Below, in pieces: positions 30,527-43,841 of a stretch of DNA of 64,000 nucleotides (its first letter is position 1; each line of letters opens with the position of its first letter). Made by a program: the position numbers and the translations under genes. This stretch comes from Acrocarpospora catenulata (GTDB lineage Bacteria > Actinomycetota > Actinomycetes > Streptosporangiales > Streptosporangiaceae), in the NCBI RefSeq assembly GCF_018476525.1, contig NZ_JAHCST010000042.1:1-64000 (forward strand), written 5' to 3'. Below the pieces are notes generated by a model. The model did no database searches. It was not told the origin of the DNA and worked only from the letters and a program-made list of their open reading frames with translations.

Positions 30527-30916
30527 GTGACTGATACGCCCGTCGAACCGGCTTGGCCGCGCCGACGTCCCTCGGTTCCGGGCTTGCACCTTGGTCAGCT
30601 GTTCGGCGTGGCGGTCACGACATGGAGTCTGGAATTCTTCGCCTGGCTTGGCAGCACGTCGATAGAGCTCAAGGAGTGTGGACTCGATCCACTGACCGAG
30701 TACGAGACCGACCTGTGCGCCCCAGCGAGCTTCTGGAGCTCGACCGCGTTCATTCTCTGGATGGCCAAACCGCTTGCCTGGGCGGTGGCGGCACTCTTTC
30801 TCTGGCGGTCACCTCAGCGCTGGACCCGCCGAAGGCGGCTCACCGCGTGGTCCATCCCCGGCTTCCCGATGATCAGCATCATGGCGCACGTCATCGTTGT
30901 CCTCCTGTACGCATGA
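30527..30916 (+). CDS. Small integral membrane protein
   Basis: 129 aa from GTG 30527. Three hydrophobic segments: LFGVAVTTWSLEFFAWLG, FILWMAKPLAWAVAALFLW and ISIMAHVIVVLLYA. The loop between the first two contains two cysteines (KECGLD and DLCAP) that could form an extracytoplasmic disulfide. No family is recognised. Its last 26 bases overlap the end of the convergent Lnt-like fragment. Confidence 0.55.
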   Translation: MTDTPVEPAWPRRRPSVPGLHLGQLFGVAVTTWSLEFFAWLGSTSIELKECGLDPLTEYETDLCAPASFWSSTAFILWMAKPLAWAVAALFLWRSPQRWTRRRRLTAWSIPGFPMISIMAHVIVVLLYA

Positions 30917-31373
30917 CCTCAGCCGAACGCTTCGTACGAGTCAGTGCACCGAGCGCGATCAGCAGTAATCCGGCCGAGGCCCACGCGGCCCAATCGCCCA
31001 AGGTGGTGTAGAGGGTGGTTGAGCCCTCCCGAGGCAGGGTGGCCGTGACCGTGGTCATGGTCGTTCTGTCGGTGTGGTGCTCGGTTAGGATTCGGCCGCG
31101 GTTGTCGCTGACTGTCAGCCAGCCTTCGCGTGCGGTGCGGGCCACCGTCAGGCCGTTCTCCACGCCGCGTGTCACTGCCATGCGGCTGTGCAGCCACGCG
31201 TCCACCCCGAAATCCCAGGCGGGTGCGAGCAGGGCGGCGGCGCCGGCCCGGCCGTACTGTCTGACCAGGTCGGGGAAGTCGAGGTCCTTGCAGATGATGA
31301 GGCCGAGGCGGGTGTCGTCGAGGAAGGCCAGGCTGGTGCCGGGGCGGAAGTTGCGCTCAATACCGGGGATCAT
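30891..31373 (-). pseudogene. Truncated apolipoprotein N-acyltransferase-like nitrilase domain
   Basis: 160 residues match only the C-terminal half of an Lnt/carbon-nitrogen hydrolase: MIPGIERNFRPGTSLAFLDD, the nucleophile Cys in LGLIICKDLDFPDLVRQYGR, and a C-terminal membrane helix WASAGLLLIALGALT. The catalytic Glu and Lys of the triad and the N-terminal membrane domain are missing. The frame begins 5 bases after the histidine kinase stop. It looks like a deletion junction that joined an Lnt gene tail to the kinase gene. It cannot be catalytic alone. Confidence 0.75.
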
Positions 31374-31378
31374 GCGGG

Positions 31379-32457
31379 CTATTCAAGCGGGAATTCAGCT
31401 TTCACCATGAATCCTCCGTTTTGTCCTGCTCCGGCGCTGAGCGTCCCGCCGCAGGCCGCTGCGCGTTCGCGCATCCCGGCCAGCCCGTACCCGCCGCCCT
31501 CACCGGCCCTCGGCCGTCGTCGGCGATCTCCACCGTCAGGCTGTCCCGCCAGGTCAGAGTGAGGCGTACGGCGCGCGTACCGGCGTGTTTGCGTACGTTG
31601 GTCAGCGCCTCCTGGACGATGCGGTAGACGGCGGCCTCGACGCTTTCCGCGAGCAGGCGCGGGGTGCCGACGGTCGTGCTCGTCACATCGAGGCCGCTGC
31701 GGTCGAGCAGCGCGGGGAGGTTGGCCAGACGGGGCTGAAAGAGCGACTGCGCCGGTTCGCCCGGGGTTCGCAGGGCGGCGAGCACCCCGCGAAGCTCGGT
31801 CAGCGCGCTCCTTCCGGTGTTGGCGATCGCGTCGAAAGCCGCTTCGGCCTTGTCTGGGTCGCTGCGTACCACCACCGGCCCGGCTTCGGCTTGGACCACC
31901 ATGAGTCCGACGGAATGGGTGAGGATGTCGTGCATGTCGCGCGCGATTCGGGTGCGTTCCTCGGCCACCGCCGCGATGTGCTCCTGCTCCCGGCGCCGTG
32001 CTCGCTCGGCCAGTTCGGCGGCTCGTGAGCGGCTTGCCCTGGCGCTGGTGCCCAGGGCGTACGCGGCTACGAAGGCGGTCCCCACCAGCCGGAAGGTCTC
32101 GTCGTTCTCCCCTGGCAGTACCAGTGAGGCGCCCACGGCCGCCACGATCATCGGGATCGCCGCCAGCCGCTTCCACGTGGGACTCAGGTCGGCGATCGTG
32201 TAGACGGCCAGCAGCGGCCCGAAGGGCAGGAACGGCTTCTCCCACATCACCATCGCCGACATCGCCGCCCCGACCACCACGGCTACCACCATCGGCGCCC
32301 GCCTGCGCCACCACACCGGCACCGACGCCAGCAGCCCCAGGCCGATGATCCACCACGGTTTGGGATCGGGCAGGAGAAGCGGCCCGACCGTGGCCAGGAC
32401 GACGCCGGCCATGAGCGCCCCGTCAACCGCCCTCCCGGCCCGGCCCGCTGCGAACAT
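31379..32457 (-). pseudogene. Two-component sensor histidine kinase (HisKA_3), one-base frameshift
   Basis: From ATG 32457: four or five membrane helices (LMAGVVLATVGPLLL, WWIIGLGLLASVPVWW, VVAVVVGAAMSAMVM and more), then the NarL-type dimerisation domain RTRIARDMHDILTHSVGLMV with the phosphorylated His, and the ATPase N-box AVYRIVQEALTNVRKHAG. The frame is lost at IADDGRGPV (about 31505). The next frame continues correctly with GEGGGYGLAGMRERAAACGG and VKAEFPLE to a stop at 31379, so one base is missing. Such kinases are normally followed by an overlapping LuxR-type response regulator; none is present. Confidence 0.85.
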
Positions 32458-32476
32458 CCGTCCATTATCGATCTGG

Positions 32477-34306
32477 TCAGTGCAGCACTGCGGGCTCCTG
32501 GAAACCTGCGGCCTGGCGGGTGAACAGCCGTGCGTACTCACCGCCCAGCGCCATCAGCTGGTCATGCGTCCCCTCCTCGGCGACCTTGCCCTCGGCGAGC
32601 ACGATGATGTGATCAGCCTGGCGTACGGTGTTGAGCCGGTGGGAGATCAGCAGGCTGGTACGGCCCGCGCGGCAGGCGCGCAGCTGCTCGGCGATCGCGT
32701 ATTCGGCGTCAGGATCCAGGCCGGAACTCGGCTCGTCCAGGATGAGCAGGTCCGCCGATTCGGCGCGGAGCAGGGCCCGGGCGATGGCCACCCGCTGCCA
32801 CTGCCCGCCGGAAAGGAGCACACCCTGACCGGCCTCGTCTCCCGGTCCTGCGGCGAAGAATCGGGACAGAACGGTCTCGTATCCGAGCGGCAGCCCGGCG
32901 AGTGCCTCATGGACGCCCGCTTGGTTCGCCGCGACCTGAATCCGCCCAGAAGAGTCCAGCGCGGTGAGGTCGCCGATGGCGATGTTCTCGGCGGCGGTCA
33001 GGTCGTAGGCGACGAAGTCCTGGAAGACCGCGCCGATCCGGCGGCGAATGCCGTCGACGGGCAGGTCGCGCAGGTCGGTGCCGTCCCAGTGGATGCCGCC
33101 GCGGCCGGGGTCGTACAACCGGCACAACAACTTGACGAGCGTGCTCTTGCCCGCGCCGTTCAGCCCCACCAGGGCGACGGTCTTCCCGTACGGAATGGTC
33201 AGGCTCAGGCCGCTGAGCACCCACGGAAGACCCGAGCCGTAACGGAACCAGACGTCGCGCACCTCGATGGCGTGCCGCAGCGTGGCGACCACCCCCTCCG
33301 TGGCCGGTTCCGCCAGGTCGGCCTGCGCGCGCACGACATGCTCGTAGTGGTTCACGAGAGTGAGCGCCTGCTGGAGCTGGCCGAGTTGGACCGTCATCGA
33401 CGACAGGCAGGACAGTACGCCCGCCACGGCGGCGGTGAGGACCGCCAGGTCGCCGACGCTGGCCCGGCCGGCCCCGATCTGCGCCACCATCGCGATCAGC
33501 GCGCCGCCCGCGACGACGGCGGCGAACAGGGTCAGCGCGCCGTTCTGGCGGACCGCGACGGTGTCGAGGCGGCGCTCGGCGCGCTGCCCGGCGTCGAGTT
33601 CGGCGAGCATCCGGCCGCGCAGGAAGCCGCCGATCCCGAACAGCCGGATTTCCTTGGCGGCCTGGAGGTCCAGCAGGAGCAGCTGGTAGAAGACCCTGCG
33701 GCGTTCGAGAGGCGCGGTCTCCCACATCATCTTCGTACGCGCCCGGCTGAGGCGGAGCTGGACGACCACGTCGGGTACGGCAGCGGCGGCCACGACCAGC
33801 GTGAGCCACGGGCTGAAGGTGCTGACGGCCCCGGCGAACCCCACCAGCGTCACTGCCCCGCTGAGCAGGCTGAGCAGCGCGTGCACCACGATCTGCGGAG
33901 TCGCCTGGCCGGACTTCTGGGCCAGTTGGAGGCGGTCGTGGAACTCCGGGTCCTCCAGCCGCGCCAGCCCCTTGATCCGGGACACGGCCGTGAACAGATC
34001 GTCGCTGGTCCGGCGAACGATCCGGCGCTGCTGCTCGCGCTGGACGTAGTCGGTGAGATGGGGCAGCAGGGCCACCACTCCCCCGGCGACGGCCAGCAGC
34101 AGTGCCGGCACGAGCGGGCTCGGCCCGGATCCCGTGGTGAGCCGGTCGATCAGCAGCTTGGTCAGCCAGGCGAGCGCGACGGGCGCCGCGCCGCCGGCGA
34201 TCGCCCCGGCGAGCTGGATCATGGCGAGAACCGGCCCAGCCCGCCAGACAAGCGCCCCGACGGCGAGCAGCGCGGCTCCCGTCCCCCGCGACTCCGGTGA
34301 CCTCAT
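32477..34306 (-). CDS. ABC exporter, membrane-ATPase fusion
   Basis: 609 aa from ATG 34306, overlapping the thioredoxin stop by four bases. The N-terminal half is a six-helix exporter domain (LMIQLAGAIAGG-like helices, VVALLPHLTDYVQREQQRRI). The C-terminal ATPase has Walker A GLNGAGKST, signature LLSGGQWQRVAIARALL and Walker B LLILDEPSSGLD. It lacks an N-terminal C39 peptidase, so it does not cut a leader itself. Heterologous relatives export lanthipeptides and other small peptides. It is the third gene after the six-cysteine peptide and thioredoxin genes, so export of that peptide is the obvious inference. Confidence 0.88.
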   Translation of the reverse strand: MRSPESRGTGAALLAVGALVWRAGPVLAMIQLAGAIAGGAAPVALAWLTKLLIDRLTTGSGPSPLVPALLLAVAGGVVALLPHLTDYVQREQQRRIVRRTSDDLFTAVSRIKGLARLEDPEFHDRLQLAQKSGQATPQIVVHALLSLLSGAVTLVGFAGAVSTFSPWLTLVVAAAAVPDVVVQLRLSRARTKMMWETAPLERRRVFYQLLLLDLQAAKEIRLFGIGGFLRGRMLAELDAGQRAERRLDTVAVRQNGALTLFAAVVAGGALIAMVAQIGAGRASVGDLAVLTAAVAGVLSCLSSMTVQLGQLQQALTLVNHYEHVVRAQADLAEPATEGVVATLRHAIEVRDVWFRYGSGLPWVLSGLSLTIPYGKTVALVGLNGAGKSTLVKLLCRLYDPGRGGIHWDGTDLRDLPVDGIRRRIGAVFQDFVAYDLTAAENIAIGDLTALDSSGRIQVAANQAGVHEALAGLPLGYETVLSRFFAAGPGDEAGQGVLLSGGQWQRVAIARALLRAESADLLILDEPSSGLDPDAEYAIAEQLRACRAGRTSLLISHRLNTVRQADHIIVLAEGKVAEEGTHDQLMALGGEYARLFTRQAAGFQEPAVLH

Positions 34307-34830
34307 GCCCGTGCGAGGCGTCGCATCGGGTCGAGTTCGTGGCTGGAGGCCAGGACCGCGCCGTCCGGCCCGACCAGGAAGAACAGCGGATAGGCGGCGA
34401 CCGCGAAGGCCGTGGCCACGGGACCGGCCTCCCCTTCGACGACCACCCTGCCGACCGCGTCCAGCGCCTGCAGCAGGTCGTCCGCGGCCGTACGACCGGT
34501 CGAGACGACAGCGAGCGCCGGGGTGGCGGTGGCGGTGTCGGCGAAGGCGGGGGCCTTCGGCAGGCACGACCCGCAGTCGGTGGAGAAGAACCCCACCAAG
34601 GTGACACCGTCGCGCAGGACCTCCTCGTCGACCGTCTCGCCCGTGGTCGTGGCGGCGGTGAACGAGGGGACCTTCGTCCCGTCGGCCAGCCCCACCTGCC
34701 ACCGGCCGTCGGTGTGCCTGGCCCTCTCCCGCTCGTATTCGCGCAGCTTCCTGATGATCCCGCCGGTCAGCACCAGGTTGACGGCGACGAGCCCGGTCAG
34801 GACGAGCACGGCGGACAGACCGATGGTCAT
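34303..34830 (-). CDS. Membrane-anchored thioredoxin-like protein (TlpA/MauD type)
   Basis: 175 aa. ATG 34830 is chosen: GGAAAGGGAAG precedes it and it puts a single membrane helix (IGLSAVLVLTGLVAVNLVL) at residues 3-21. The thioredoxin fold follows: VPSFTAATTTGETV, then GFFSTDCGSCLPKAPAFAD with redox-active Cys86 and Cys89 and, later, AVAAYPLFFLVGPDG containing the cis-Pro loop. Such outward-facing thioredoxins reduce or form disulfides in exported proteins. It lies between the six-cysteine peptide gene and its probable exporter. Confidence 0.85.
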   Translation of the reverse strand: MTIGLSAVLVLTGLVAVNLVLTGGIIRKLREYERERARHTDGRWQVGLADGTKVPSFTAATTTGETVDEEVLRDGVTLVGFFSTDCGSCLPKAPAFADTATATPALAVVSTGRTAADDLLQALDAVGRVVVEGEAGPVATAFAVAAYPLFFLVGPDGAVLASSHELDPMRRLARA

Positions 34831-34907
34831 GAGCGCTTCCCTTTCCGATCGTGGTCGTGGCTCCGGAGCCGTCATGGGTCCGGAGCCCGGAACGTGAGTT
34901 CAGACCG

Positions 34908-35117
34908 TCAGCACTGACCGAGGTAGACCCAGCTGGCGCTGCACGTCGCCCGGGAGTAGGCCAGGCAGATGTTGCCGGTGGGGTTGGGGTAGCACTGCTT
35001 GTAGTGGTAGCAGCCGCCGGTGAGGGCGGAGTAGTAGCACGTGTCCGCCTGGGCTTCGGTCTTCGGCAGGAACGCGCTGAGGAGCCTGTCCCCCATTCGT
35101 GCGATTGTCCGGGTCAT
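34908..35117 (-). CDS. Six-cysteine small peptide, candidate exported precursor
   Basis: 69 aa with GGGAG 8 bases before ATG 35117. The first 24 residues (RTIARMGDRLLSAFLPKTEA region) have no cysteine and end AQA, resembling a leader with a small-residue cut site but without a hydrophobic core. Residues 25-69 hold six cysteines (27, 36, 42, 51, 59, 69), many tyrosines and a C-terminal Cys, enough for three disulfides. No known family is recognised. The genes for a thioredoxin and an ABC exporter follow in order, and a SARP gene lies just upstream, so it is likely the substrate of a dedicated maturation and export set. Confidence 0.6.
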   Translation of the reverse strand: MTRTIARMGDRLLSAFLPKTEAQADTCYYSALTGGCYHYKQCYPNPTGNICLAYSRATCSASWVYLGQC

Positions 35118-35238
35118 GAATCGCTCCCTTCGGATGGACGTGACCGGCCCTGTCGGGCCGCCTCCTCACGATGGACGGCGCCGGCTGCGCGGCGGTGAAC
35201 GGGTGACGCGCAGGCCCGCGTAACCGGCGCGACACCGG

Positions 35239-37475
35239 TCACAGCTCAGCGGTCAGCCGGGCCGTGCGCAGCGTGGCCAGGTTGCGCGCCATGATCTCCT
35301 CGCCCCACAGGTTGTCCGCGTGCCGGCAGGCGCGCAGGGCGCGCTCGTGGGTGTCCGCCCAGTCCTCGTGCAGCCCGCGGGCGGCGTAGTAGTTGACCGA
35401 GCGGGCCGCGAGCTCCCAGGCCAGCTCGTGCTGCCCGGACGCGGCGGCCTGCGCGACGCACGCTCTGATCGCGGCGCGTTCGACGTCGAACCAGTCGAGG
35501 GCGTCCAGGACGAGCCCCCTGGCCCGCGCCGGCTTCATGTACCAGCGGGGGGCTACGCCGCCGATGTCCCAGGTGAGGCGTTCGAGGAGGGAACGGTCCG
35601 CGGCCTCGGCGAGCGCGAGCCAGCCGCCGATCGCCCGCTGCACCGCCCCCGCGCGCAGCTCGGGCGGTTCCTCCGCGGTGGCGCGTTCGCGGGCGTGCAG
35701 CCGCAGGAGATCGATCAGGCGATAGCGCAGCCGGCCGCACGCGTCGGCACCGGTGCACTCCAGCAGATGGACGTCGAGCATCTCTTTGATCAGCGCCTCC
35801 GCCTGCTCCGGAGAGACGTCGAGCAGCGCGGCCGGGACCCAGGACGCGAAGTCGGGGACGTCGAGCAGGCCGAGCAGCCGGTACGCCCGCCGGCTCGGCT
35901 CACTGAGCGCGGCGTAGCTCGACCTCAGGCGGTCCCGTACGGACAGGTCCCCCGCGGTGAGCTCGTCGAGGCGGGACGGCTCCGCCCGCAGCCGGGACGC
36001 CAGACGGGCCAGGCCCAGATGCTCGTCCCCGGCCACCCGGGCGCCCGCGATCCGCAGCGCCAGGGGAAGCCGGTCGCAGAGCCGGACGATCTCGGCGGCC
36101 GCCCACTCGTCCGCGCTCTCCGCGCCCGCGACCCTGGCGAACAGCTCCTGCGCCGCCGCCTGGTCGAGCGCGGACAGCCGCATCGTCGTCCGGGCGCCCA
36201 GCGCGGCCAGCCTGCGGCGGCTCGTGACCAGCACCGCGCAGTGCGGGCCGCTCGGGATCAACGGCCGGACCTGCGCCTCGCTCGCGGCGTCGTCCAGGAT
36301 CACGAGCACCCGCCGGCCCGCGGTCAGCGCCCGGTACGCCTCCTGCCGCTCCTCCGGCGTGGCCGGAAGCCTGCGGCAGTCCGCCCCCAACGGCACGAGA
36401 AAGCGGCCGAGCACCCGGTCGGGGGCGACCGGCCGGTCGCCGGACCCACCCAGTTCGGCATAGAGCTGGCCATCGGGGAACTGCTCGCGCAGCCGATGGG
36501 CCACGTGGACGGCCAGCGCGGTCTTGCCGGTCCCCACCCCGCCGACCACCAGCGCCACGGATCCTCCGGCGGCCAGAGTGCGGCGCAGCGTCTCGGCCTG
36601 CTCCCACCGCCCGGCGAAGTCGGCGAGATCGGGCGGCAGGAGACGGGGGGAAACCGGGTCCGCCCCGCAGGTGTGCTGGACGGCCGGCAGCCCGAGCGCC
36701 GCCTCGGCCGCCAGGGTCATCGCTCCGTCGTCGAGGACGGCGTCGTGCACGCTCCTGAGCAGCCGGCCGGGCACCACCCCGAGCTCCTCGCGCAGCGCCG
36801 TACTCGTGCGGTGATAGATCTCCAGCGCCTCGGCCTGCCGCCCGGTGTGGCACAGGGCGAGCATCAGAAGGGCGCAGAGCCGTTCACGGTACGGGTGGAG
36901 CGTGGCCAGCGGGGCGAGCTCGGCCGACACCTCGTCGTGCAGGCCGAGGGCGAGTGTGACGGCGGCGCAGTCCTCGTGGACGCGCAGTTGCTCCTCCTCC
37001 AGCCGCCGCGCCTCGGCGGCGACCAGCAGCGGCTCCTCGATGTCGGCGAACGCGGGGCCGCGCCAGAGGGCGAGCCCTGGCGGAAGAGCGCGCGGGCCGC
37101 CTCCAGGGATCCCCGTTCGACGGCGGCACGCGCGTCCCCGGTCAGCTCGGCGAAGCGCAGCGCGTCCAGTTCGCCGGGCGTGACGACCAGGGCGTAGCCG
37201 CCCGGGCCGTACGCGATGCGCCCCTGTTCTCCGGTCAGCTGCCGGAGCCGCCGCACATACACCTGGACGGTCTTGCGTGAGCTCGGCGGCGGTGCCTCGC
37301 CCCACAACGCCTCGATCAGCGTGGGCACCGCGACGGCCCGGCCCGGCCGGCACAGCAGGACGGCCAGCAGCCGGCGCACCATCGGGGCGCCGATCGCGAT
37401 GTGTGCTCCCCCGTGGCGGACCTGCAATGGCCCAAGAACGCCGAAGTCCGTGGTCATCAGATTCCCATCCGGCAT
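35239..37475 (-). pseudogene. SARP/AfsR-type regulator, one-base frameshift
   Basis: From ATG 37475 (or 37457): a SARP winged helix (TTDFGVLGPLQVRHGGAHIA, VPTLIEALWGEAPPP, GGYALVVTPGELDAL) up to ARALFRQG. The frame breaks near 37078, where GGCTCGCC should read GGCCTCGCC, and continues LALWRGPAFADIEEPLL, the BTAD domain (GRQAEALEIYHRTSTALREE), an NB-ARC P-loop VGGVGTGKTA, ILDDAASEAQVRPLIPSG and TPR-like helices ending at 35239. Apart from that one base it is complete, so a sequencing error is quite possible. SARPs activate antibiotic and peptide clusters; it stands beside the six-cysteine peptide gene, on the same strand. Confidence 0.85.
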
Positions 37476-37557
37476 CGCTCCATGGTGATCTGCCGGGGAT
37501 GTCGCGACCAGGCAGTTGACCGGCAGTTGGTTCCTGCCTGACGGGGCGGGCCGATGG

Positions 37558-37563
37558 CATAAT
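37558..37563 (+). promoter_or_regulatory. Putative -10 box of the XRE-NB-ARC gene
   Basis: CATAAT preceded by TGG resembles an extended -10 box about 28 bases before the ATG at 37591, in the divergent gap between the two regulators. No good -35 box is visible. Confidence 0.35.
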
Positions 37564-37590
37564 GCGGCTTCGCGCCCCGAATCCAGCAGG

Positions 37591-40329
37591 ATGACCAGGA
37601 TGATCGCTCCGCTAGTGATCACGCACCGGCGTCGGCTCGGCCTGACCCAGGAAGAACTCGCGGACAGGTCCGGCCTGAGCGTACGGGCGATACGCGACAT
37701 CGAGTCCGGCCGCGTGGGCAGCCCGCGGCCGACCACGCTCCGCCTGCTCGCGGACGCCTTCGGGCTCGCGGACGACGACCGCGACCTCTTCGTCGGCTCC
37801 GCGCGTGTGCCCGCTCCCGCGCCGTCCCGCGAACCCGCAGGTGAGCGCCCGTGGACGCGGGTGGCGCAGCTGCCGCCCCCGGGCGGCGTCTTCGTGGGCC
37901 GGGCCGAGCAGCTCGCCCGGCTCGACGCCCTGCGGCCCGCGGGGCGGCGCCTTCCGGCACCCGTCACCGCCACGGTCGTGGGCACCGCCGGGGTGGGCAA
38001 GACGGCCCTCGCCGTGCACTGGGCGCACCGGTCCGCCGCGCACTTCCCCGACGGGCAGCTCTACGCCAACCTGCGCGGGCACTCCGCCGAATCGTCCGTG
38101 ACACCCGAGTACGCGCTCGCGGGCTTCCTCCGCTCACTCGAGGTTCCGGCCGAACAGATCCCGCGCGACCTCGACGCGCTGGCAGCGATGTACCGTTCAT
38201 TGACTTCCGGGCGGCGCATTCTGGTCCTGCTGGACGACGCAGGGGCGCCCGGCCAGGTGCGCCCGCTCCTGCCCGCGAGCGGCATGGCCCTGATCACCAG
38301 CCGGGACGAGTTGCGCGGGCTGGTCGCGCTCAACGGCGCGCACCCGGTCGTGCTGGCTCCGCTCCCGGCGGCCGAGTCGCTCGTGCTGCTTGGCCGCATC
38401 CTCGGACCGGACAGGGTCGAGGCCGACCCGGACGCCGCCGGTGAACTGGCCGGGCTCTGCGCCCACCTCCCGCTGGCGCTGCGCATCGCCGCCGCCGACC
38501 TGACCACCCATCCCGAGCTCACCGTCCGTACGGCCGTGAGCCGCCTGGCCGCGGACCGCCTGGACCACCTGGAGATCACGGGAGACCCCTCGGCGGCGGT
38601 CCGCGTCAGCTTCGACCTCTCCCTCGACGCCCAGCCGCCGCCCGTCCAACGGGTCTTCCGCCTGATGGGCACGGCCCCCGGCGGTGACATCTCGATTCCC
38701 GCCCTCGCGGCGCTGGCCGGGATCTCGACCGGCGAGGCGGCCGAGGCGACCACGCTGCTGGCGGGCGCGCATCTCGTCGACCGCTCTCCCACCGGCCGCT
38801 CCGCCATGCACGACCTGCTGCGCGCGTACGCGGTGGAGCGCGCGGCGCGCGAGGACGGCGCGGCCGAGACGCGGGCGGCCCTGACCCGGCTCTACGACCA
38901 CCTCCTCGGCCGGGCCGAGGCCGCCGCCGATCTGCTCTATCCCGAGGTGCTCCGGCTTCCGCGATTCGCGGACACCTTCGAGTACACCTTCGAGGACACC
39001 AAAGCCGCCGCCGACTGGCTGGAGGCCGAACGGGAGAACCTCGTCGCCGCCGTCCTCCGGGCCGCGGCGGACGGCCCCCCGCATGTCGCCTGGACCCTCA
39101 CCGCCGCGCTGCGCGGCTACTTCTCCATGCGGATGCTCGCCGTCGACTGGTCGGCCTGCGCCGAAGCCGCGCTGACCGCGGCCTACGCGGCCGGCGAGTG
39201 CCGGCCCGCCGCCGTACTCGAACTCGGCCTGGCCTGGCTGCACGTACGGCACAGCAGGGAGAAGGAGGCGATCGACCACTACACGAAGGCACTGGAGCTC
39301 GCCGAAGAGGCCGGGTGGGTGGACTGTCAGGCCGCCACCCTGGGCGCGCTCGCCTCCGTGCACTTCTACTCCGGGCGGCTGGCCCAGGCCGCCGACGTCT
39401 ACGCGCGGTCGTTACGGGCCAACGAGGAGGCCGGCAACGTCGGCGGCCAGGCCGTACAGTCGAGCAACCTCGGCCAGGTCTGCTACGAGCTGGGCCGGAC
39501 CGCCGAGGCGGCGCACCACCTCGCCCGCGCGCTGGAGCTCTATCGGCGGATCGGGTCCCGAGCCGGCGAGTCGCACACGCTCTCGGACCTGGGCGCGGTG
39601 TACCGCGTCGCGGGCGACTTCCGCCTGGCCGAGAGCCACCTCGACCAGGCGTGCGCCCTGCAGCGGGAGGTCGGCGACCGGCTCGGCGAGGCGGAGTCAC
39701 TCCATCGGCTCGCCGCGGTCCACTGCGACACCGGCCGGCTGCCGCGCGCGCACGAACTCGCGCAGGAGGCCATCGCCGTCGCCCAGGAGATCGGCCACCT
39801 ACGCCTCCAGGTCCGGGCCAGGGCCGTGCTCGGGACCGTACAGTTCCATCTCGGTGACCACCGGCAGGCGTTCGACACCGACCGCGAGACGTTGCGGATC
39901 GCACGCGACGCCGGAGAGCGTATCTCCGAGATCACCGCGTTGATCGGCCTGGCCCGGGCACGGCACCGGCTGGGCGGCGCGGACGACCAGGCCCTGGACT
40001 ACGCCACCGCGGCCCTCGCGCTGGCGCGCGGCACCGGCCACCGCATCCTCGCGGCCCAGGCCATGACCACCGCCTCCGAGATCCACCTCACCCGGGGCGA
40101 GACCGCGCCGGCCCTCAGCCGGGCCTCGGACGCCATCGCCCTCCACGAGGAGACCGGCCACCGCCCCGGCGCCGCCCGGAGCCTGATCGCGCTGGGCAAC
40201 GCACTGCGGCGCGAGAACGGCACCGCCAAGGCCCGTCCGGTCTGGGACGCCGCCCGTGCGCAGCTGGCCGAACTCGGCATGTCCGACGAAGAGTTCCGCG
40301 ACCTGGTCGACCCGTCGTACTGGAGCTAG
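37591..40329 (+). CDS. XRE-HTH, NB-ARC, TPR regulator (NLR-like)
   Basis: 912 aa. The ATG at 37591 precedes an XRE helix-turn-helix (HRRRLGLTQEELADRSGLSV, RAIRDIESGRVG). An NB-ARC domain follows with P-loop GTAGVGKTA, LVLLDDAGAPGQVRPLLPAS and ITSRDELRGL, then at least six TPR units (for example QSSNLGQVCYELGRTAEAAH and HTLSDLGAVYRVAGDFRLAE). Proteins of this layout control secondary metabolism or development. It is transcribed divergently from the SARP gene, from a 115-bp gap holding a -10-like box, and may be co-regulator of the adjacent peptide genes. Confidence 0.85.
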   Translation: MTRMIAPLVITHRRRLGLTQEELADRSGLSVRAIRDIESGRVGSPRPTTLRLLADAFGLADDDRDLFVGSARVPAPAPSREPAGERPWTRVAQLPPPGGVFVGRAEQLARLDALRPAGRRLPAPVTATVVGTAGVGKTALAVHWAHRSAAHFPDGQLYANLRGHSAESSVTPEYALAGFLRSLEVPAEQIPRDLDALAAMYRSLTSGRRILVLLDDAGAPGQVRPLLPASGMALITSRDELRGLVALNGAHPVVLAPLPAAESLVLLGRILGPDRVEADPDAAGELAGLCAHLPLALRIAAADLTTHPELTVRTAVSRLAADRLDHLEITGDPSAAVRVSFDLSLDAQPPPVQRVFRLMGTAPGGDISIPALAALAGISTGEAAEATTLLAGAHLVDRSPTGRSAMHDLLRAYAVERAAREDGAAETRAALTRLYDHLLGRAEAAADLLYPEVLRLPRFADTFEYTFEDTKAAADWLEAERENLVAAVLRAAADGPPHVAWTLTAALRGYFSMRMLAVDWSACAEAALTAAYAAGECRPAAVLELGLAWLHVRHSREKEAIDHYTKALELAEEAGWVDCQAATLGALASVHFYSGRLAQAADVYARSLRANEEAGNVGGQAVQSSNLGQVCYELGRTAEAAHHLARALELYRRIGSRAGESHTLSDLGAVYRVAGDFRLAESHLDQACALQREVGDRLGEAESLHRLAAVHCDTGRLPRAHELAQEAIAVAQEIGHLRLQVRARAVLGTVQFHLGDHRQAFDTDRETLRIARDAGERISEITALIGLARARHRLGGADDQALDYATAALALARGTGHRILAAQAMTTASEIHLTRGETAPALSRASDAIALHEETGHRPGAARSLIALGNALRRENGTAKARPVWDAARAQLAELGMSDEEFRDLVDPSYWS

Positions 40330-41973: not shown

Positions 41974-42792
41974 TCAAACCTGGCCGCCGCTATCAGGTGC
42001 TGGCAGCGCCACGACGGCCTCGCCTGTGTAGGCCGTGAAGGTCAGGGTCTCCTGGAAGTACAGGTGGATGTTGGCCGTGTCGTGTGCGAGGTAGCCGATC
42101 GAGAGGTCCTGGCCGAGGTGCAGTTCGAAGTCGCCGCCCCGGGTGGACAGCAGGAAGGCCCCGTCGATGGCGGGTGCCCAGATGGGGTCGCCGTCCACCA
42201 GCCGGGTGAGGTGATCCTGGACCGGGTAGCCCTGGTCGGCGGCCTCGGCGACCGCGGTGTAGGCGTCGGCGCCGAGGGCCAGCGTGTATGGGCCGTTGAC
42301 GCCGGCCAGTCGCAACGCGGTCACGGCCTGGGCGATCGCGGTGGGATAGTCGCGTACGTGTGGCGGGAGGGCGATCGCCGGGTTGGTGGCGGCGGCGCGA
42401 ACACCGACGATGCCGGCCGCCGCGTACCCTTCGAAGATCGCAAGGTCCTCGGCGAAGGCGATCTGGCGGGCCGCGTCCTTGACCGGCTGCCAGTCCGCGT
42501 CCTTGGCCCCGCGTTCGACGTCGTCGACCTGCTGCCGGTCGATAGTGAAGGGCACGCGGAGTTCGACGATCGGCTGGGATTGGCGGATCCGGGCGATCAC
42601 GCTCTCCGAGTGAGAATCGATGGTCTTCAGGTGCCCGGTGCCGACCGCCGACAACAGAACGCCTTCCGGGCCGGCGACGTCGACGATGCGTCGGCCGGCC
42701 ACATGACGCCGGAAGGTCCGCGCCGCCTCGTTCTCCAGGTCGGCCCAGGCGGCGGCGGAGATCGGCGCGAGCTCGCGATGCAGGTTGTTCAT
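41974..42792 (-). CDS. enc: Family 1 encapsulin shell protein
   Basis: 272 aa from ATG 42792; the preceding codon is TTG. The HK97-like sequence is typical: NNLHRELAPISAAAWADLEN, EAARTFRRHVAGRRIVDVAGP, VELRVPFTIDRQQVDDVERG, FAEDLAIFEGY and a C-terminal FQETLTFTAYTGEAVVAL. It self-assembles into a protein compartment that encloses cargo bearing a short C-terminal signal. Its ATG overlaps the DyP stop by one base, so shell and cargo are made together. The ribosome binding site (GAGGAAG) lies inside the cargo-peptide coding region. Length and order match the known DyP-encapsulin operons. Confidence 0.93.
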   Translation of the reverse strand: MNNLHRELAPISAAAWADLENEAARTFRRHVAGRRIVDVAGPEGVLLSAVGTGHLKTIDSHSESVIARIRQSQPIVELRVPFTIDRQQVDDVERGAKDADWQPVKDAARQIAFAEDLAIFEGYAAAGIVGVRAAATNPAIALPPHVRDYPTAIAQAVTALRLAGVNGPYTLALGADAYTAVAEAADQGYPVQDHLTRLVDGDPIWAPAIDGAFLLSTRGGDFELHLGQDLSIGYLAHDTANIHLYFQETLTFTAYTGEAVVALPAPDSGGQV

Positions 42793-43841
42793 CAAACTTC
42801 GCTTCCTCTGAGATCCCCGATCCCCAGGGATTGCGGCGACCGCGTGTCACGCTCAGCCGGCGCGGGCGTCTCGTCCTCGACCGGGGGCGCGGCCGCGATG
42901 GCAGGCGGGTCGGGGAGGTCGTCGAGGAAGTCGGCGCTCGGGACGAAGAACAGGTTGCCGGTCGCGGGGACGGAGAAATCCAGGATCCGGTCGTGTCGGG
43001 CCGGTGGGTCGCCGAGGAACATCCGCTCCAGCATCCGTTCCGTGACGGCCGGAGTGCGGGCGTAGCCGATGAAGTACGTGCCGAACTCGCCGCGACCCAC
43101 CGAGCCGAAGGGCATGTTGTCACGAAGGATCTGGCGTTCGGTGCCGTCAGGGTCGGTGATGGTGGTCAGTGCGACGTGGGAGTCGGGCGGTTTGACGGCG
43201 TCGTCGAGTTCGACGTCGGACAGTTTCTTCCGGCCGATGACCATTTCCTGGGCTTCGACCGGCAGGGCGTTCCACGCCTGGAGATCGTGCAGGTACTTCT
43301 GGACGATCACGTAACTTCCGCCGGTGAATCGCGGGTCCTCCGCACCGATCAGGACGGCGGCGCTGGCTGCCGGGCCGACCGGATTTTCCGTGCCGTCGAC
43401 GAAGCCCAGCAGGTCTCGTACGTCGAAATACTTGAATCCCGGCACTTCATCGCGGACCGTCACCACGTCCCGCACCCGGTCCATGATTTCCGCCCCCAGC
43501 GCGAAGCACAGGTCCGGCCGCTGGGCCCGGATGTGGAACAGCAGGTCACCCGGTGTGGCCACCGCGTGGTGGACCGGGCCGGTGAGTTCGCGGAACGGGT
43601 GCAGTTCGGCGGGGCGCGGCCCGGCGAACAGCCGGTCCCAGGCCCGCGAGCCGATCCCGGTGACGCAGCTCAGCCTGCCCTCCTGCGACCGGAATCCGAC
43701 CGCCCTCTCCAGGCCCGTCAGATCGGCGAGCAAGTCCCGCACGCGGGACTCGCCTCCTGGATCGATCGTCACCACGAGGAAGAGCGCCGCCCTGGTCAGC
43801 GGGCTCAGCACCGCCTGGGGAATCACCTGCGACTCCGCCAT
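42792..43841 (-). CDS. dyp: Dye-decolorizing peroxidase (DyP) with encapsulin targeting peptide
   Basis: 349 aa. DyP signatures: LLGFVDGTENP (GxxDG with distal Asp149), a haem-ligand His in the SHVALTTI region, and FGSVGRGEFGTYFIGYARTP. A proline/acid-rich linker (about 310-335) leads to SLGIGDLRGSEV, the consensus cargo-loading peptide that docks on the inner face of family 1 encapsulins. It oxidises phenolic or dye substrates with hydrogen peroxide and would be held in the shell encoded immediately downstream. Start: ATG 43841. Confidence 0.95.
   Translation of the reverse strand: MAESQVIPQAVLSPLTRAALFLVVTIDPGGESRVRDLLADLTGLERAVGFRSQEGRLSCVTGIGSRAWDRLFAGPRPAELHPFRELTGPVHHAVATPGDLLFHIRAQRPDLCFALGAEIMDRVRDVVTVRDEVPGFKYFDVRDLLGFVDGTENPVGPAASAAVLIGAEDPRFTGGSYVIVQKYLHDLQAWNALPVEAQEMVIGRKKLSDVELDDAVKPPDSHVALTTITDPDGTERQILRDNMPFGSVGRGEFGTYFIGYARTPAVTERMLERMFLGDPPARHDRILDFSVPATGNLFFVPSADFLDDLPDPPAIAAAPPVEDETPAPAERDTRSPQSLGIGDLRGSEV

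Follow-up and report, generated by a model that had tools for sequence, protein, structure and literature searches.

A locus in Acrocarpospora catenulata probably belongs to a large, often SARP-linked family of gene clusters making exported, disulfide-cross-linked peptides by the route proposed below. It lies within positions 1 to 64,000 of contig NZ_JAHCST010000042.1, the 64,000-nucleotide stretch that was analysed as a whole and is called the window here. The family to which we assign it is widespread and largely unstudied; its conserved leader, even cysteine counts and conserved gene set were all observed directly in this analysis.

Organization of the A. catenulata locus

The genes form a minus-strand run, in transcription order SARP regulator, 69-aa precursor, redoxin and ABC exporter, with an XRE–NB-ARC–TPR gene divergent on the plus strand:

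32477..34306, minus strand: ABC exporter (permease and ATPase), assigned by Pfam
34303..34875, minus strand: membrane-anchored, thioredoxin-like redoxin with a CGSC motif, assigned from its sequence and from Pfam matches below cut-off
34908..35117, minus strand: precursor peptide gene (69 aa; leader 1–24, core 25–69, six Cys)
35118..35238, no strand: intergenic stretch upstream of the precursor, with a breakpoint at about 35238 relative to A. macrocephala
35239..37457, minus strand: SARP regulator (BTAD and NB-ARC, AfsR-like), with a one-base frame break in a run of G near 37077
37591..40329, plus strand: XRE-HTH/NB-ARC/TPR regulator, divergent from the SARP gene, accessory

The exporter and redoxin genes overlap by 4 nt, and 32 nt separate the end of the precursor gene from the start of the redoxin gene. 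The redoxin has a single N-terminal hydrophobic stretch, and its Pfam matches (Redoxin, AhpC-TSA and Thioredoxin) all fall slightly under the curated cut-offs. No C39 peptidase was seen in the exporter among Pfam matches at E ≤ 1, which agrees with the preliminary description of this DNA, made from the sequence alone, in placing a membrane thioredoxin and a peptidase-less ABC exporter beside the precursor. That description had also reported no lanthionine gene, and the Pfam scan of 15 window proteins, a part of the window's genes, likewise found no lanthionine synthetase, lasso cyclase or B protein; none of these three recurred near the relatives' precursors when neighbouring genes were grouped. 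MauE was found neither in the window by tblastn nor by profile over 26–44 kb. Of the two regulators said to adjoin the peptide genes, SARP and XRE–NB-ARC, both are present, although the SARP gene is not one open frame and the XRE gene, which occurs in 5 of the 80 relatives' regions, is accessory and not a core part of the cluster.

Leader/core architecture is visible in the window precursor. The leader, MTRTIARMGDRLLSAFLPKTEAQA, has 24 residues and no cysteine, ends AQA and fits the family pattern RxLxRLGDRLLxxLxPxxxAxA; the core, 45 residues long, includes six cysteines and seven tyrosines, as anticipated by the claim of a 69-aa precursor with a Cys-free leader and a six-Cys, Tyr-rich core. 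If three disulfides form, the calculated monoisotopic mass of the core is 4988.09 Da. A double-glycine class II bacteriocin was considered and rejected on two grounds, a leader ending AQA rather than GG and an exporter with no C39 domain among its Pfam matches.

The window precursor has no NCBIfam or Pfam match at E ≤ 1, and the 22 members of the precursor profile give weak single matches at most (best E 0.16 in NCBIfam and 0.0097 in Pfam). Searched against the PDB by sequence, the window precursor returned four chance-level matches (best E 0.2). Its AlphaFold model (mean pLDDT 69.2) has a disordered leader (below 50) and a core of four strands at moderate confidence, and a fold search of this model against the PDB gave no match at E ≤ 0.001 (best 1.7).

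Spread of the precursor family and cysteine parity

A search of 297 genomes in the taxonomic family of A. catenulata with the window precursor gave matches at E ≤ 0.01 in 61, among them the A. catenulata genome, where two further precursors both lie on contig C160. At E ≤ 0.001, a 22-row precursor profile had matches in 152 of the 345 genomes sampled from the order; none of 40 control regions matched. At the same threshold, 4 of 396 genomes in a phylum-wide sample matched, one of them A. catenulata itself; among the three others, the gene set is present in G367 (E 1.8e-6), and the remaining two matches (E 6e-4 and 7e-4) contain internal stops. A search with the precursor of G367 through 246 genomes of its genus gave matches in 6, G367 among them. 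The family therefore appears to be rare outside the order, as far as these searches indicate.

The window and 80 other regions yielded 106 precursor ORFs in 81 regions, reduced to 105 by dropping one exact duplicate. The relatives share the leader RxLxRLGDRLLxxLxPxxxAxA above widely variable cores. Every one of the 105 cores has an even number of cysteines (4 in 21, 6 in 67, 8 in 16 and 10 in 1); 104 leaders are free of cysteine, and 103 end in AxA, with Ala at the fourth and sixth places after the leader Pro. Twenty of the 105 were seeds of the profile, and in the remaining 85 the same features were found (85 with even cysteine number, 83 with AxA). Parity is also even in each of the 25 groups into which the cores fall at 50% identity.

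Judged by a simple Kyte–Doolittle scan (11 residues) alone, the leaders look too polar for a Sec signal: their maximum hydropathy has a median of 0.75 and exceeds 1.6 in 5 of 105. Comparison with A. macrocephala NBRC 16266, of the same genus and the closest relative of the locus, revealed no amino-acid change in the leader, a dN/dS of about 1.2 in the core (44 codons) and 0.24 in the ABC exporter, and values of at most 0.69 for the precursor-locus genes other than the core. In this pair, the core changes faster than the leader and the exporter.

Arrangements vary among the relatives. In region L048:9139-15064, seven different precursor ORFs surround one redoxin/ABC/S26/MauE set. A third, divergent precursor of the A. 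catenulata genome (L035, C160:64201-84200) is accompanied by redoxin, S26, MauE and ABC genes, all on one strand. In three regions (L113, L126 and L140), precursor genes have a SARP gene nearby and no exporter within 5 kb; these may be orphan precursors or clusters split across the genome. An alignment of the sequences upstream of 12 precursor genes showed similar stretches, from which no operator was defined.

A conserved gene set surrounds the precursors

The 80 regions, mostly better-scoring matches, were drawn from 66 genomes spanning 15 genus codes, with two from the A. catenulata genome itself, and were compared with 40 arbitrary 18-kb control regions from 20 genomes of the same family. 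The leader profile had been built from 22 members. An ABC exporter was present in 77 of 80 regions (0 of 40 controls), an S26 signal-peptidase-like protease in 74 (0 of 40), a redoxin in 67 (0 of 40), MauE in 53 (0 of 40; absent in 27) and SARP in 45 (3 of 40). These fractions lean high, since the very 81 regions used for the count had also served to grow the profiles for redoxin, MauE and S26; as the control regions show, however, these profiles do not match indiscriminately. All five genes lie within 5 kb of a precursor in 34 of 80 regions. An exporter lies at most 5 kb from the precursor in 76 regions, and S26 is also there in 73 of these. When neighbouring genes of at least 80 aa were grouped, no sixth family exceeded 14 of the 81 regions. 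The preliminary description had staked its proposal on the peptide being conserved with the thioredoxin and the exporter, and the peptide indeed recurs in 80 regions, 77 with an exporter and 67 with a redoxin.

In the A. catenulata genome, the redoxin search at E ≤ 0.001 gave three matches, the window's included, one adjoining each of the genome's three precursors. MauE was not found in the paralogous A. catenulata cluster L034 or in the A. macrocephala cluster (L036). Redoxins are weakly recognized by Pfam: two that were tested, from the window and from one relative, fell under the cut-off, and a third had no match at E ≤ 0.01. Three tested MauE proteins match PF07291, two of them also matching DoxX weakly. 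All 74 S26 proteins carry loose forms of the Ser (GxSM) and Lys motifs that mark type I signal peptidases, and 42 of the 74 satisfy a stricter Ser pattern; three tested S26 proteins match PF10502, and one S26 aligns to signal peptidase IB.

Proposed route to the mature peptide

We infer each biochemical step of the following route from gene content. The precursor would be made with the amphipathic leader RxLxRLGDRLLxxLxPxxxAxA, which the peptidase-less ABC exporter would recognize as it moves the precursor out of the cell. Cleavage after AxA would then fall to a small, signal-peptidase-I-type S26 protease, and the membrane-anchored redoxin, in many relatives together with MauE, would form or proofread the disulfides of the core. 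The product would be a mature 45-aa peptide, here with three predicted disulfides, which would be released and most likely act as an antagonistic, bacteriocin-like agent. In the window strain, the cleavage step would have no local gene, and the copy would be silent or served in trans.

A separate protease had been suggested for maturation from the outset. This was right for the family as a whole, but the S26 gene is absent from the window and present in A. macrocephala. Only the exporter accompanies the precursors more constantly than S26 (74 of 80 regions), and such persistence would be odd for a dispensable gene if housekeeping signal peptidases cut the leader and the S26 genes were auxiliary, as postulated for the cinnamycin-type AxA motif. 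We regard that alternative as quite unlikely, even with two points on its side: the available text of PMC12837462 likens the AYA of coerumycin to the AFA of CinA and postulates a general type I signal peptidase, and the window copy has no local S26 in a genome with an apparent housekeeping S26 pair on contig C57.

Redoxin and cysteine number

The presence of redoxin is associated with cysteine number over the 80 loci (Fisher p = 2e-4), with the four-Cys class forming one clade. On an exporter tree of 76 loci, redoxin is absent from 9 of 18 four-Cys clusters and from 1 of 58 clusters with six or more cysteines. Parsimony over the whole tree places 7 redoxin changes, 5 within four-Cys loci and 1 within the rest, and the four-Cys subtree makes up 3.79 of 21.47 units of branch length (18% of tree length). 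An independent-pairs test of redoxin against cysteine number had 1 informative pair of 5. The concentration of redoxin changes in the clade with the fewest cysteines suits a disulfide role, though all four-Cys loci fall in one clade; a disulfide-forming redoxin is plausible in this family.

The redoxin/MauE pair might instead support export, yield or quality control, with disulfides arising spontaneously or through general oxidases, as for SviE/SviF and MslE/MslF of class I lasso peptides. In the available text of PMC9266682, loss of the thioredoxin from a DoxX/thioredoxin pair left the disulfides of a class I lasso peptide able to form, the peptide then staying in the mycelium. Among the deletions described there, that of SviF allowed sviceucin production but confined the peptide to the mycelium, and removal of MslE or MslF lowered the yield of MS-271 without abolishing its production. 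Because these lasso disulfides formed without the thioredoxin, the redoxin may likewise serve export or yield here, and the 9 of 18 exporter-bearing four-Cys clusters that have no redoxin point the same way. Set against this are the even cysteine numbers of all 105 cores and the clustering of redoxin changes in the fewest-Cys clade (5 versus 1, in 18% of tree length), as expected if redoxin serves cysteines. We consider a redoxin without a part in disulfide formation somewhat unlikely.

State of the window copy

Relative to A. macrocephala, about 444 bp containing the S26 gene are missing from the window between the precursor and SARP genes, with the breakpoint near 35238; tblastn of S26 in the window gave chance-level matches only (E 0.62 and 0.68). 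S26 is absent from 6 of the 80 relatives' regions as well. The window SARP gene has one base fewer than its A. macrocephala counterpart, in the G run near 37077, and no single open frame. With S26 missing and the SARP frame broken, the window copy may be idle or silent, or it may be served in trans. The S26 loss and the SARP frame break could each be an assembly fault.

Service in trans is possible, either by an S26 protein of the C160 clusters or by housekeeping signal peptidases. In the A. catenulata genome, both C160 clusters still contain one S26 gene each, and an adjacent pair of S26 genes on C57 apparently encodes the housekeeping signal peptidases. Over 115 residues, S26 of A. macrocephala shares 63% identity with the S26 protein encoded in the nearest paralogous cluster.

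Just downstream of the exporter lies a histidine kinase gene (31379-32541, minus strand) whose C-terminal ATPase end is in another frame and which had no match beside the A. macrocephala cluster in the 20 kb compared. It is followed by a carbon-nitrogen hydrolase fragment (30891-31373, minus strand) that matches only positions 130–249 of the 256 in the Pfam model. The fragment and the frame-broken kinase suggest local gene decay, and the window cluster may itself be a decaying relic, with its S26 lost and its SARP frameshifted beside a kinase whose end is in another frame and a truncated hydrolase. The missing stretch of about 444 bp with S26, the one-base SARP indel and the hydrolase fragment (130–249 of 256) all fit such a history, yet the reading frames for precursor, redoxin, ABC and XRE are unbroken, dN/dS is at most 0.69 except in the core, the frame breaks could be assembly errors and S26 may act in trans. 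We treat decay as a serious possibility, although one that falls a little short of even.

Predicted activity of the peptide

The most likely activity of the peptide would be antagonistic and bacteriocin-like. A peptide with a signalling or developmental (pheromone-like) role, or one that inhibits an enzyme, would be compatible with the SARP genes, whose presence in 45 of 80 regions fits any switch of specialised metabolism or development, and with the lack of a recurring immunity-like gene among neighbours of at least 80 aa. A shared signal is, however, a poorer fit than an arms-race peptide to diversified cores under a conserved leader and to the seven different precursors of region L048, and we think a signalling or inhibitory role unlikely.

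Comparison with known systems

The locus had been called undescribed in the preliminary description, which was too strong. In its available text, the decRiPPter study (PMC7794033), whose filter required transporter, peptidase and regulator genes, flagged similar Streptomyces candidates: three families with mauE, one of them also with mauD, whose Cys-rich precursors contain at least 8 cysteines. The present family is like these in combining mauE/mauD-type redox genes with a small Cys-rich precursor. The window differs from them in having no MauE and a precursor with 6 cysteines; the peptidase type and leader are not named in the portion of their text at hand. One region outside the taxonomic family of A. 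catenulata and within the same class, L155, contains MauE, redoxin, S26, ABC and an 8-Cys precursor with a leader ending AxA, and is a probable cousin.

Three other systems share parts of this gene content. Sviceucin, MS-271 and humidimycin are described in the available text of PMC9266682 and PMC7168211 as class I lasso peptides with DoxX/thioredoxin pairs; their clusters resemble the present ones in that transporter genes for a disulfide-bearing peptide are accompanied by genes for a DoxX-type membrane protein and a CxxC thioredoxin, whereas neither a lasso cyclase nor a B protein recurs near the precursors studied here. Cinnamycin-type lanthipeptides have an AxA motif in the leader, postulated in the accessible part of PMC12837462 to be cut by a type I signal peptidase; by contrast, no lanthionine synthetase recurs near the present precursors or appeared among the 15 window proteins scanned, and most relatives carry their own S26 gene. 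TMcins, described in the available text of PMC13252029 from Gram-positive bacteria with a model in Staphylococcus, are likewise disulfide-bonded peptides with a leader protease and an ABC transporter, to which staphylococci add a DsbA-like oxidoreductase dedicated to the peptide. In contrast to the present family, their precursor has a transmembrane helix, their protease is of the S2P type and the DsbA-like protein stands in place of redoxin/MauE.

In the open-licence literature, we found no experimental study of this peptide family and no report in print of this leader combined with an S26 gene, and a search for MauE and RiPP as whole words returned only PMC7794033. Whether the clusters constitute a new class, we consider evenly balanced: such a class would comprise disulfide-only exported peptides centred on Streptosporangiaceae, with a peptidase-less ABC exporter, an S26 protease cutting non-Sec leaders after AxA, a MauD/MauE-type folding pair and fast-diversifying cores for bacterial antagonism. 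If so, a family matched in 152 of the 345 genomes sampled from a single order would offer a large and so far untapped supply of stable disulfide miniproteins. Experiments could then ask whether an ABC exporter, in place of Sec, can be served by a homologue of signal peptidase, and what function pairs of the MauE/MauD type have when methylamine metabolism is not involved. Genome miners looking for LanM, YcaO, radical SAM or C39 genes alone would be expected to overlook such clusters.

Other genes near the locus

Beyond the XRE regulator gene, and adjoining it, is a gene for an AbiEii-type nucleotidyltransferase (PF08843; 40836-41945, plus strand). Farther along, on the minus strand (41974-43841), a DyP-type peroxidase gene is followed by an encapsulin (Linocin_M18) gene, an adjacency that is the arrangement of a peroxidase-loaded encapsulin.
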